Origin: Roseivivax sp. THAF197b
GTDB lineage: Bacteria; Pseudomonadota; Alphaproteobacteria; Rhodobacterales; Rhodobacteraceae
NCBI RefSeq assembly: GCF_009363255.1
Contig: NZ_CP045318.1
Coordinates: forward strand, 100,001 to 164,000
Length of the DNA stretch: 64,000 nt
Direction of reading: 5' to 3'
Below the pieces are notes generated by a model, which was not told the origin of the DNA, made no database searches, and saw only the letters and a program-made list of their open reading frames with translations. Position 1 is the stretch's first letter, and every line of letters begins with the position of its first letter. This document shows, piece after piece, positions 1 through 4,572 of the stretch. The position numbers and the translations under genes were made by a program.

Positions 1-40
1 GAATAGGCTTTGATCCAGGGATCTCCGAATGGGGCAACCC

Positions 41-95
41 ACCTGAATGTTTGTTATTATTGCCTTCGGGCAGCTAATAACACTCATGACCAGGT
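41..95 (+). other. extended helix 9 hairpin of 23S rRNA
   Basis: The stem starts with ACCTG (41-45) against CAGGT (91-95). It continues with an AT-rich arm (51-59 against 74-82) and is capped by a CTTCGGG tetraloop-type turn near 64-70. E. coli has a much shorter helix here. Alphaproteobacteria commonly carry a small intervening sequence at this place, so this is a normal clade trait, and cleavage of the mature rRNA here is plausible. Confidence 0.7.
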
Positions 96-533
96 ATTTA
101 TGACCTGAATATATAGGGTTATAAAAGCAAACCCGGGGAACTGAAACATCTAAGTACCCGGAGGAAAGGAAATCAATTGATACTCCCCTAGTAGCGGCGA
201 GCGAACGGGGACCAGCCGAGCCTTGAGCGTGATCAGAACCAGTTGGAAAGCTGGGCCATAGCGGGTGACAGCCCCGTATGAGAAGCGTGATGGGACGTAT
301 TAAGTAGGGCGGGACACGTGAAATCCTGTCTGAAGATCGGGGGACCACCCTCGAAGGCTAAGTACTCCTTGCTGACCGATAGCGAACCAGTACCGTGAGG
401 GAAAGGTGAAAAGCACCCCGACGAGGGGAGTGAAACAGTACCTGAAACCGAGCGCCTACAATCAGTCGGAGCTTGACTGGACTCTTATGACACTCTGAGG
501 CCATGGTCCTCCACGAGGAGTTGAGCGGCAAAA

Positions 534-598
534 GCCCTCAAGTAACGAAGTGGTAGGGCTGTCGGATGCTCTGCCCTCAAGTAACAAAGTGGTAGGGC
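534..598 (+). repeat. two 26-nt direct repeats, each a short hairpin, inside the 23S insertion
   Basis: Copy 1 (534-559) and copy 2 (573-598) are identical at 25 of 26 positions, starting GCCCTCAAGTAAC and ending AAGTGGTAGGGC. They are separated by 13 nt. In each copy GCCCT at one end can pair with AGGGC at the other, so each may fold into a small hairpin. Copy 2 ends 6 nt before the ATG of the enclosed coding frame. They could be traces of the insertion event, RNA processing or protein sites, or a structural cap on the leader. I recognise no named family. Confidence 0.7.
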
Positions 599-604
599 AC
601 TAAC

Positions 605-1120
605 ATGGCTGATGGAACGTTTGCAGTATTGATGTTCGTGGCGGGTCTGACCGACATGGGTCTCAATTATTGCGGCACGGCAACGGGTTGCCTCGGCAAG
701 ACCGATACGACACCGCGCGTGGCCTTCTCGGCCGGGTCGGTGATCGAACGGAATGCCGAAGAAAGCCCGGAAGTTTATCTTCGCTACGATCTCGGACACA
801 AGCGCGGGCCATTCGGCCAGGCCCTGGGTCTGTCGACGGGCGAGGCGGGATCGTGGATCGGCTTTGGGTCGACCTACACGATCAATCTCGGCAACAGCCC
901 GGTTTACGCCGAGCTGCACTCGATGCCTGGCATCTGGGTGGAGAACGAATTCGACCTTGGAGGGCCGATCGCCTTCCGATCCGGGATCGAGTTCGGCTAC
1001 GAGATGCGGAATGGCTGGCGCGCGAGCCTCAGCTATGACCATCGATCGAGCGCCGGGATCTACGAAGACAATCCGGGGATCGAAACGGTGCAATTCCGGG
1101 TCTCCATGCCATTGCGATGA
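605..1120 (+). CDS. PagL-type lipid A 3-O-deacylase (acyloxyacyl hydrolase-like) encoded within 23S rRNA
   Basis: The 171-residue product resembles the PagL family of outer-membrane beta-barrel enzymes that remove the 3-O-linked acyl chain from lipid A. His146, Ser148 and Glu160 fit the PagL catalytic triad, whose members in Pseudomonas (His126, Ser128, Glu140) have the same +2 and +12 spacing. The context SYDHRSS then NPGIE is characteristic. Alternating short strands (EVYLRYDLGH, SWIGFGSTYTINLG, VYAELHSM, AFRSGIEFGYEM, VQFRVSMPL) suit an eight-stranded barrel. The N-terminus has a hydrophobic stretch (residues 5-20) but no basic n-region or clear cleavage site, so it may be a poor signal peptide or a truncated start. 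An in-frame stop at 593 leaves 605 as the first ATG. No Shine-Dalgarno is visible. Whether it is translated from rRNA precursor is unknown. Confidence 0.72.
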   Translation: MADGTFAVLMFVAGLTDMGLNYCGTATGCLGKTDTTPRVAFSAGSVIERNAEESPEVYLRYDLGHKRGPFGQALGLSTGEAGSWIGFGSTYTINLGNSPVYAELHSMPGIWVENEFDLGGPIAFRSGIEFGYEMRNGWRASLSYDHRSSAGIYEDNPGIETVQFRVSMPLR

Positions 1121-1220
1121 ACGTTCCCGACAGAGTTTATAAGTGTCCAGTCTTGTGACGGCGTACCTTTTGTATAATGGGTCATCGACTTGGTCTATCT
1201 AGCAAGCTTAAGCCGTTAGG

Positions 1221-1254
<34 letters not shown>

Positions 1255-1653
1255 ATGAGTTAGATGGATCAGACCCGAAACCGAGTGATCTAGGCATGAC
1301 CAGGATGAAGGTAAGGTAACACTTACTGGAGGTCCGAACCCACACCTGTTGAAAAAGGTCGGGATGAGTTGTGCCTAGGGGTGAAAGGCCAATCAAACTC
1401 GGAGATAGCTGGTTCTCTGCGAAATCTATTTAGGTAGAGCGTCATCCGAATACCCCGGGGGGTAGAGCACTGGATGGGTAATGGGGCCCCACAGGCTTAC
1501 TGATCCTAACCAAACTCCGAATACCCGGGAGTACTAGATGGCAGACACACTGCGGATGCTAACGTCCGTAGTGGAGAGGGAAACAACCCTGACCTACAGC
1601 TAAGGCCCCCAATTCGTGGCTAAGTGGGAAAGCAGGTGGGACGACCAAAACAA

Positions 1654-1684
<31 letters not shown>

Positions 1685-1798
1685 TAAAGATAGCGTAACA
1701 GCTCACTGGTCTAAACAAGTTGTCCTGCGGCGAAGATGTAACGGGGCTCAAGCCACGAGCCGAAGCTTAGGATGCCGTAAGGCATGGTAGCAGAGCGT

Positions 1799-1860
1799 AG
1801 TGTGACATAGGACCTGTCCTCTTTTGCATCCTTCGGGATGTAGCGGAGGAACGGGTTCTT
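1799..1860 (+). other. extra hairpin in the helix 45/46 region of 23S rRNA
   Basis: Compared with E. coli, about 60 nt are inserted between GAGCGT and CTGTGAAGCC. The insert folds on itself. GCATCC (1826-1831) pairs with GGATGT around a TTCG turn, flanked by CCTC against GAGG and by a looser outer stem. It is a small element of the intervening-sequence type and may be another cleavage point in mature 23S. Confidence 0.55.
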
Positions 1861-2420
1861 TCTGTGAAGCCGGGGCGTGAGCCATCCGGTGGAGAGATCA
1901 CTAGCGAGAATGATGACATGAGTAGCGACAAAGAGTGTGAGAGACACTCTCGCCGAAAGTCCAAGGGTTCCTGCTTAAAGCTAATCTGAGCAGGGTAAGC
2001 CGGCCCCTAAGGCGAGGCCGAAAGGCGTAGTCGATGGGAACCAGGTTAATATTCCTGGGCCAGGAGATGGTGACGGATTGCGGAGGTTGTTCATCCTTAT
2101 CGGATTGGATGGGCCGCTGAGCAGTCCCTGGAAATAGCCCTCCTTCGGACCGTACCCGAAACCGACACAGGTGGACTGGTAGAGAATACCAAGGCGCTTG
2201 AGAGAACGATGTTGAAGGAACTCGGCAAAATACCTCCGTAAGTTCGCGAGAAGGAGGCCCGGTTCCTAGGCAACTAGGGGCTGGGGGCACAAACCAGGGG
2301 GTGGCGACTGTTTACTAAAAACACAGGGCTCTGCGAAGTCGCAAGACGACGTATAGGGTCTGACGCCTGCCCGGTGCCTGAAGGTTAAAAGGAGGGGTGC
2401 AAGCTCTGAATTGAAGCCCA

Positions 2421-2503
<83 letters not shown>

Positions 2504-2758
2504 CGACTTCCCCGCTGTCTCCAACATCGACTCAGCGAAATTGAATTGCCTGTCAAGATGCAGGCTTCCCGCGGTTAGACGGAAAGACCCCGTGCACCTT
2601 TACTACAGCTTCAGACTGGCATCAGGCATGTGATGTGCAGGATAGGTGGTAGGCTTCGAAGCAGGAACGCCAGTTTCTGTGGAGCCATCCTTGAGATACC
2701 ACCCTTCGCCTGCTTGATGTCTAACCGCGAACCGTTATCCGGTTCCGGGACCCTCTGT

Positions 2759-2794
<36 letters not shown>

Positions 2795-2936
2795 CGTAAC
2801 GGAGGCGCGCGAAGGTTGGCTCAGAGCGGTCGGAAATCGCTCGTTGAGTGCAATGGCAGAAGCCAGCCTGACTGCGAGACTGACAAGTCGAGCAGAGTCG
2901 AAAGACGGCCATAGTGATCCGGTGGTCCCAAGTGGG

Positions 2937-2985
<49 letters not shown>

Positions 2986-3572
2986 ACTGCCCAAGAGTCC
3001 ATATCGACGGCAGTGTTTGGCACCTCGATGTCGGCTCATCTCATCCTGGGGCTGGAGCAGGTCCCAAGGGTACGGCTGTTCGCCGTTTAAAGAGGTACGT
3101 GAGCTGGGTTTAGAACGTCGTGAGACAGTTCGGTCCCTATCTGCCGTGGGTGTAGGATACTTGAGAGGAGTTGCCCCTAGTACGAGAGGACCGGGGTGAA
3201 CGATCCACTGGTGGACCTGTTGTTGCGCCAGCAGCAGTGCAGGGTAGCTATGATCGGACAGGATAACCGCTGAAGGCATCTAAGCGGGAAGCCCCCCTCA
3301 AAACAAGGTATCCCTGAGGGCCGTGGAAGACCACCACGTCGATAGGCCGGAGATGTAAGCGCAGCAATGCGTTCAGTTGACCGGTACTAATGGCCCGATA
3401 GGCTTGATTTGATCCAGTAACAGACAGGTGGAACCTGCGCTTACCGGATGAAAATCAAAAGCATACACAAACAGTACGCTTGGACAGCGATAAAGGTTGA
3501 TATTGCAGCACCTGGAATGACACCGGTGCGGGAACGCGCATTTGCATGCAAATACGCTGCCTCCCGCTAATT

Positions 3573-3604: not shown

Positions 3605-3722
3605 GGTTTGGTGGTCATAGCACGAGCAAAACACCCGGCTCCATTCCGAACCCGGCCGTTAAGTGCCGTCGCGCCAATGGTACTGCGTCTTAAGACGTGG
3701 GAGAGTAGGTCGCCGCCAAACC
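3605..3722 (+). rRNA. rrf: 5S ribosomal RNA
   Basis: The terminal stem GGTTTGG (3605-3611) pairs with CCAAACC (3716-3722). The conserved core CCATTCCGAACCCGG (loop B/C region) and the end motif GGGAGAGTAGGTC are present. The 118-nt length is standard. It follows 23S by about 195 nt and precedes initiator tRNA, the normal end of an alphaproteobacterial rrn operon. Confidence 0.96.
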
Positions 3723-3779: not shown

Positions 3780-3856
<77 letters not shown>

Positions 3857-4471
3857 ATAATACCCAAATCAGCATCAACACCAAACAACGCGCCCCGTTG
3901 GCCCGCGTCAGTAACGGCTGTAAGCATCTCTACACATAAAATGATCAGCGTCCTCCGCTGACACTTGCCCCGACACAGACTGTGGATCATCCCACAGCAA
4001 GTGCAGGGCTTCCAAAAATCGAAGTAAATCGAGAGCAGACACAGTGCGTTTTGATTGCCGCGAAAAACGACGCGTTGCGGATTACACGCGGTAGGACGCA
4101 TCCCCGCAAACGCGGGAGATCTACTAAGTCAAAAGCATCGCGCGCTTATCATCGTCTACGACCGTCTTTATGGCATCCCCATGCAGCTTCATGCGGGATC
4201 GTAAGGCGTAGCTGAATTGAATAACCCGCACCTCACGTGAGCGAAGCGCAGACATGCCTAGGCGCCTACTCCGATAATTCACTCCTCAGAACACGAAATC
4301 GCCGATTTTGCGGGCGTCTCTCGGATCCTGCCGCGGTGGTTCAGACGTATTCAGATATCTGATCTTCGCAGAAAAGATCGCACAGGGGATGACCGAAAGT
4401 CCGCAAACAACCGACGGGTTCAGCTCGCCCAGTTCGGCGTTTACACGCTGACAAAATCGAGAAAAAGCAAT
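3857..4471. other. 615-nt intergenic stretch with no recognisable gene
   Basis: Short frames on both strands look accidental, with no plausible start site and no family resemblance. Two hairpins are visible: CCCGC-AAA-CGCGGG near 4102-4116, and an imperfect one from ATCCCCATG to CATGCGGGAT near 4174-4199. Either could end transcripts, but neither has a T-run. A decayed element is possible, as the base composition is less GC-rich than the coding region to the right. Confidence 0.6.
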
Positions 4472-4556
4472 GGTGCCCAGGAGAGGACTCGAACCTCCAC
4501 GTCCTTGCGGACACCAGCACCTGAAGCTGGCGCGTCTACCATTCCGCCACCTGGGC
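4472..4556 (-). tRNA. tRNA-Leu (CAG)
   Basis: An 85-nt class II tRNA with encoded CCA (TGG at 4472-4474 on the plus strand). The acceptor GCCCAGG pairs with CCTGGGC. The anticodon stem CCAGC/GCTGG encloses loop TTCAGGT, giving anticodon CAG for codon CTG. A long variable arm (GTGTCCGCAAGGACGT type) marks it as leucine. CTG is the dominant leucine codon in the neighbouring genes, so this should be a heavily used tRNA. Confidence 0.96.
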
Positions 4557-4572
4557 AGGTTGCGTGAGGCGC

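Follow-up and report, generated by a model that had tools for sequence, protein, structure and literature searches.

Most of an insert that interrupts a 23S rRNA gene of Roseivivax sp. THAF197b is taken up by a single protein-coding frame of the PagL family, which raises the question of whether an enzyme gene can be housed, and used, inside an rRNA gene. The insert was analyzed within a stretch of 64,000 nucleotides (the window), together with its counterparts in related genomes. Inserts in rRNA genes are usually viewed as junk or as selfish elements. In contrast, this one is a conserved enzyme gene that is present as the sole detected genomic copy in every readable 23S gene. Our preferred reading, to which we assign a probability of roughly 0.7, is that the insert with the genome's only detected pagL is cut out of the rRNA precursor and expressed from the released piece, with a predicted outer-membrane lipid A deacylase as its product.

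The insert, its closing stem, and its leader

The original prediction placed the insert in helix 25 of 23S rRNA, and this is confirmed. The Rfam match to the 23S gene spans positions 1–3411 around the insert (Table 1), and in E. coli 23S numbering the left junction is position 542, which belongs to helix 25 (the 23S gene starts at 284 of the E. coli locus used, and the match ends at 825). The intervening-sequence positions given in the accessible part of PMC6191907 are 131–168, 543–550, and 1176, so the insert adjoins the second of these and lies in a known 23S hot spot. A group I or group II intron was rejected, as none of the Rfam intron families matches the window at the gathering threshold. 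We class the insert in helix 25 as an element of the intervening-sequence type.

Table 1. Features of the interrupted rRNA operon, in window coordinates
Feature	Position	Strand	Basis
23S rRNA gene, helix 25 interrupted	1..3411	+	Rfam RF02541, 2467.9 bits, model 90-2925; 5' end precedes window
Insert in helix 25, 678 nt	475..1152	+	Replaces small hairpin of empty relatives; junction common to 20 genomes
Closing stem, 5' arm	475..497	+	MFE fold: blocks of 8, 7, and 6 bp, set apart by a mismatch and then a bulge
Leader hairpin, copy 1 (GCCCTCAAG...GGTAGGGC)	534..559	+	Sequence; fold
Leader hairpin, copy 2	573..598	+	25/26 bases identical to copy 1
Weak Shine-Dalgarno-like stretch before start codon (tentative)	591..598	+	Anti-SD pairing
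pagL-like gene, 171 codons, ATG to TGA, 516 nt	605..1120	+ (same strand as rRNA)	Pfam PF09411; AlphaFold2
Codons His146 to Ser148 (PagL catalytic His and Ser, assigned from the motif)	1040..1048	+	Alignment to 2ERV
Codon Glu160	1082..1084	+	Invariant in 53-row alignment
Closing stem, 3' arm	1131..1152	+	MFE fold; 20-genome comparison
5S rRNA, downstream of interrupted 23S	3607..3721	+	Rfam RF00001
tRNA-Met (CAT), after 5S	3780..3856	+	ARAGORN

A search of the organism's own genome with the insert reveals two identical copies, the second within G000:C1:1478558-1479248. The genome contains two 23S matches, so both 23S genes are filled. When the same genome was searched with a PagL profile, both in-23S copies were found and no other PagL.

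A long closing stem of the RNase III type had also been predicted, and the fold contains one, with segments of 8, 7, and 6 bp separated by a mismatch and a bulge. The fold of the 751-nt stretch with the insert is better than that of each of 20 shuffled sequences (z −6.6). Across 20 genomes with the insert, and with bulges left out of the count, pairs 1–8, 10, 11, 13, 14, 15, and 20 of the stem are unbroken throughout, and position 9 is unpaired in every genome, as T.T in 19 of them. Compensatory changes, affecting both arms, occur at positions 12, 15, and 18, and positions 12, 16, 17, 18, 19, and 21 are broken in 5, 2, 4, 2, 4, and 3 of the 20 genomes, respectively. The common stem with its common mismatch argues for a single origin of the insert. 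When 385 genomes of the class were searched for an exact 26-nt stem pattern, with no mismatch allowed, the one genome to match was the window's own; few family members had been drawn into that sample, so the result carries little weight.

The 20 inserts are 594–738 nt long, with 56–130 nt before the frame and 19–130 nt after it. In the tightest inserts the stop codon is situated at the base of the 3' arm or within the arm, so that translation and cleavage may compete. In the leader of the window's insert, a 26-nt unit (GCCCTCAAGTAACRAAGTGGTAGGGC) occurs twice in near-identical form, and it is present once in four other aligned Roseivivax copies. TRF reported no array at the duplicated hairpin. 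Similar stretches (CTCAAG...GCGAAG) are found upstream of the start codon in some other genera. For the three leaders that were folded, 12, 8, and 76 of 200 shuffles were as good, so these folds are modestly or not better than shuffles.

The frame and its predicted product

The claim that one intact frame of 171 codons fills most of the insert holds, since the frame covers 516 of the 678 nt. An in-frame TAG at 593–595 limits the choice of start codon. The frame had been identified as PagL from its motif, and an HMM search now makes the homology clear: Pfam PF09411 matches residues 83–168 (profile positions 44–135 of 136) with an E-value of 9.3e-14 and a score of 52.1 bits, against a curated cut-off of 23. 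PagL is the sole match in the Pfam scan of the frame, with no S23 and no endonuclease, and NCBIfam assigns no family to it. Two further frames of the insert, one of 202 codons in antisense and an overlapping one of 129 codons, were considered and have no Pfam match. An S23p identity was rejected as well, as there is no S23 match in Pfam and the structural model is mostly beta.

His146, Ser148, and Glu160 are found at the predicted positions with the +2 and +12 spacing. All three are invariant across the 53-row alignment and are kept in all 20 in-rRNA copies, and the copies outside 23S keep them in 35, 35, and 34 of 35, respectively. A profile built from the 53 homologues matches the solved PagL structure (Protein Data Bank code 2ERV) with an E-value of 7e-4.

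The AlphaFold2 model (pLDDT 88.7) is mostly beta and consists of an N-terminal helix (residues 5–21) and eight long strands. Its best match in the Protein Data Bank is again 2ERV, with an E-value of 8.7e-7, TM scores of 0.60/0.69, and 16–17% identity in the structural alignment. The frame product is thereby predicted to have the 8-stranded outer-membrane barrel fold of PagL, and its membership in the family points to a putative lipid A deacylase activity. The N terminus (MADGTFAVLMFVAG...) is hydrophobic but, having no basic residue before the predicted helix, does not conform to a textbook Sec signal. Two cysteines that follow the helix, Cys-23 and Cys-29 (671–673 and 689–691), are invariant in the 20 in-rRNA and the 35 outside copies. 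We know of no such pair of cysteines in classical PagL.

Filled and empty sites among relatives

At the DNA level the insert was detected in 5 of 60 relatives, in all five inside 23S and at the same junction. Of 394 family genomes searched at the protein level, 90 contain a homologue, which is nearly full length in 58; flanks were read for the stronger protein matches. In 17 of the 394 genomes the gene is situated inside 23S with both flanks visible. Together with three more from the window's genus this gives 20 genomes, which represent 16 genus codes (the window's and 15 others) and share one identical junction. Four genomes were left out of this count: in G033, G381, and G304 the end, or much, of the gene stands immediately before the 3' stem, next to a contig end or an N run, and in G102 the 3' arm alone is visible, after N. 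When 23S matches were counted in 11 genomes, eight had all copies filled (2/2, 3/3, 2/2, and five with 1/1) and three were partly N. Draft assemblies may collapse rrn repeats; among the single-copy genomes, G173 is a single 4.3-Mb contig.

Within the window's genus the gene is present in five of nine genomes, always in 23S. Three of the four pagL-negative genomes (G002, G005, and G008) have no 23S match in the assembly, so that the absence of pagL there is not informative, and the fourth has 23S matches that start past the site. Drafts that lose rrn repeats may therefore look falsely pagL-negative.

A 23S gene was found in 156 of the 394 family genomes, less than half of the sample. Helix 25 was read at 128 loci, 119 of them with both flanks, and these comprise 107 empty sites, 11 with PagL, and one N run. 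With six filled genomes from an earlier reading, 107 of 124 resolved sites are empty and 17 are filled, all 17 with PagL. No other cargo was found in helix 25 among these 124 sites. The one candidate for it, a 731-nt site without PagL (L173), proved to be a run of N. Helix 25 is also a run of N in L123/L230, L097/L124/L229, and L122, and other cargo is possible at these loci. The empty sites contain 2–10 nt between the filled-site junctions, 7 nt in 98 of 107, and form a small hairpin (9–13 nt where alignments end earlier).

Among the 107 genomes with an empty site, 14 contain a nearly full-length homologue elsewhere and 12 a weaker one, and 81 have none at an E-value of 1e-5. In the 17 filled genomes, no homologue outside 23S was found. 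This exclusivity (0 of 17 filled against 26 of 107 empty genomes) is suggestive only. The insert is sporadic, being absent from the same site in relatives, as is the case for rRNA intervening sequences, and many relatives manage without a pagL gene.

Expression, origin, and competing explanations

Because pagL is situated in sense within both 23S copies, its RNA is made whenever rRNA is made. We propose that the insert would be transcribed from the rrn promoters and that RNase III would cut the closing stem, giving a 23S rRNA in two pieces and a released RNA of ~0.6 kb with one complete frame. Ribosomes would translate the released RNA, or the nascent precursor, and the product would fold as an 8-stranded barrel and remove one acyl chain from lipid A. 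The amount of PagL would then track rRNA synthesis, and hence growth rate. One precursor RNA would thus be likely to serve both as a ribosome part and as an enzyme message. If translation takes place, pre-rRNA can double as mRNA, and ribosome synthesis and envelope chemistry are connected by a direct physical link.

Pairing with the anti-Shine-Dalgarno sequence was calculated for the 20 nucleotides upstream of the start codon. For the window's copy the value is −6.0 kcal/mol, and 19% of composition-kept shuffles are as strong. The 20 in-23S copies have a mean of −6.84 kcal/mol. Pairing is weaker before 32 ATGs taken from other parts of the window's 23S (−3.62 kcal/mol, p 3e-6), and the 35 outside copies do not differ from the in-23S ones (−7.46 kcal/mol, p 0.35). 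When each stretch is compared with shuffles of its own letters, a median of 26% are as strong for the in-23S copies and 12% for the outside copies. The in-23S copies do not stand out here, so the signal is partly one of purine richness.

A fuller version of the preferred reading holds that the sole pagL is built into 23S, is released by processing and translated, and ties envelope remodeling to ribosome synthesis in an arrangement that persists in 16 genera and may have been the original location of the free-standing copies; we consider the chances of this to be even. Falling somewhat short of that, yet still a serious possibility, is an account in which pagL is translated and useful and the 23S gene is a safe, well-transcribed harbor maintained by concerted evolution, with no regulatory meaning or growth-rate coupling. 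The identity of both copies in the organism's own genome is in keeping with this. Relatives keep pagL outside 23S (35 such copies were compared), and in a PagL tree of 55 rows the label "in 23S" changes 13 times by parsimony, at least six of these changes being forced by well-supported branches. The outside copies and the changes of location indicate that the 23S site is not needed for PagL function. However, the sole detected copy occupies every 23S gene, even in single-23S assemblies, and four of the 35 outside copies (L067, L075, L079, and L083) adjoin a 5S rRNA within about 0.9 kb. Two of these are co-directional with the operon and two are convergent; Rfam confirms the 5S at two of the four, and at the remaining two the match is short and lies at the end of a contig. 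By our own estimate such adjacency is far commoner than for a random gene, and it suggests a continuing tie to the rRNA operon.

One free-standing locus (L082, in G159) contains, at ~4446–4559, a partial pagL fragment that covers the C-terminal 38 residues with about 58% identity. It is located ~1.4 kb from an intact free-standing pagL, and we read it as a decayed duplicate.

How the gene came to occupy its different locations is a separate matter. On the PagL tree the in-23S copies are interleaved with those outside 23S, with the label only slightly clustered (27 of 500 shuffles as low), and pagL has left or entered the 23S site several times. Between the 23S and PagL distances of the 20 copies, some with incomplete flanks, the correlation (Mantel r 0.23, reached by 247 of 2000 permutations) is too weak to argue for vertical descent. 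The interleaving would also arise if the 23S site had been filled many times independently by a standalone or 5S-adjacent pagL, rather than once with later escapes. The 5S-adjacent copies are possible donors for such captures, and no convincing stem arms were found near the 35 outside copies, the best candidate being one arm at one locus with 6 mismatches in 21 (some flanks are shorter than 700 nt). We nevertheless regard repeated capture as unlikely. All 20 inserts share the junction, the stem, the unpaired position (T.T in 19), and eight invariant pairs, and the empty site has a different hairpin, so that it is hard to see how independent events could have recreated that stem. An identical junction and a stem with this mismatch recur in 16 genera whose PagL proteins are down to 45% identical to that of the window, which indicates that the in-23S arrangement is probably old. 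Many backbone forks of the PagL tree are open, but when the tree is taken together with the common stem, repeated escape after an old insertion seems the likeliest history. A phage or plasmid origin was also considered and rejected; there was no phage record, and the four matches to Sulfitobacter plasmids are distant (36–38% identity over half of the protein).

The original prediction left room for the gene to be a silent passenger, and in its strongest form this alternative describes a selfish or silent intervening sequence that spreads by recombination between the conserved 23S flanks, with a frame that is not translated. The Shine-Dalgarno stretch is indeed weak. The accessible part of PMC6191907 gives 23S fragmentation no convincing role, and according to that of PMC4990558 the S23p frame of Coxiella burnetii is probably not synthesized in vivo. 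The substitution pattern makes such a passenger improbable here. None of the 20 in-rRNA frames is broken, although frame-breaking mutations in relatives had been named as an outcome that would speak against a functional gene, and the catalytic residues are invariant in those 20. A synonymous excess is found in all 190 pairs of the 20 copies (largest p 1.8e-7), and dN/dS is 0.057–0.377 in the 131 pairs with finite dS; for the six in-23S copies first compared it was 0.105–0.307. Two sister pairs in which both members are in 23S have values of 0.105 and 0.178. The closest pair has differences at 34 of 124 synonymous and at 13 of 389 replacement sites; its adjoining 23S sequence shows an identity of 99.6% on the 3' flank of the insert and 93.3% on the 5' flank. 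Shifted frames of this pair show the opposite pattern as well as stops. The in-rRNA pagL frames are under purifying selection, and its strength in lineages whose sole detected copy is inside 23S makes a silent passenger unlikely.

An assembly or contamination artefact can be dismissed almost entirely: rrn operons are repeats that are often misassembled, and several relatives have runs of N at the helix 25 site, but the comparison with other rrn copies and related genomes that had been proposed as a check yields two identical copies on a 3.8-Mb contig of the organism, whose genome has two 23S matches in all, recurrence at this junction in 19 further assemblies (both flanks are visible in all 20 genomes, and G173 is one contig), and divergence of the coding type.

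To our knowledge, the classical intervening sequences of 23S rRNA are mostly without a conserved protein frame. Here, in contrast, a single conserved enzyme gene that is subject to purifying selection makes up nearly the whole insert, and it is present in all 20 fully read inserts. The elements of Salmonella, Rhodobacter, Campylobacter, and others are otherwise similar to it in their hot-spot region, their long RNase III-type closing stem, and their presence or absence among relatives (positions as given in the accessible part of PMC6191907). A closer parallel is provided by intervening sequences with an S23p frame, which PMC4990558, in the part accessible, describes for helix 45 of C. burnetii and also for Leptospira, Brucella, and Xanthomonas. 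These likewise have a protein frame in sense inside a 23S intervening sequence. According to the same part of that source, S23p is a four-helix bundle without an assigned function, and the C. burnetii frame is probably not expressed and is decaying, whereas the present frame belongs to a beta-barrel enzyme family and is intact in 20 of 20 copies. Group I introns with homing endonucleases and the rRNA insertions of CPR bacteria also place protein frames in rRNA genes (accessible parts of PMC3984707 and PMC11270868), but here there is a closing stem instead of a ribozyme, with no match to an intron family or an endonuclease.

The protein-coding rRNA inserts in the open-access literature searched are of the S23p or homing-endonuclease types. 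No report of a PagL or lipid A gene in 23S rRNA was found there among the matches listed (titles and abstract openings, with subscription journals outside the scope). Beyond the original prediction, the insert is widespread (16 genera) and under coding selection, and the same gene is found outside 23S elsewhere, four times beside 5S. For genome annotation this is a warning that rRNA masking may hide real genes. Compared with the PagL of 2ERV (PF09411), the product of the insert has the same catalytic His-x-Ser and Glu and a predicted 8-stranded barrel. It differs in its length of 171 residues, its predicted N-terminal helix, the invariant Cys-23 and Cys-29, an identity of 16–17%, and the location of its gene inside rRNA.
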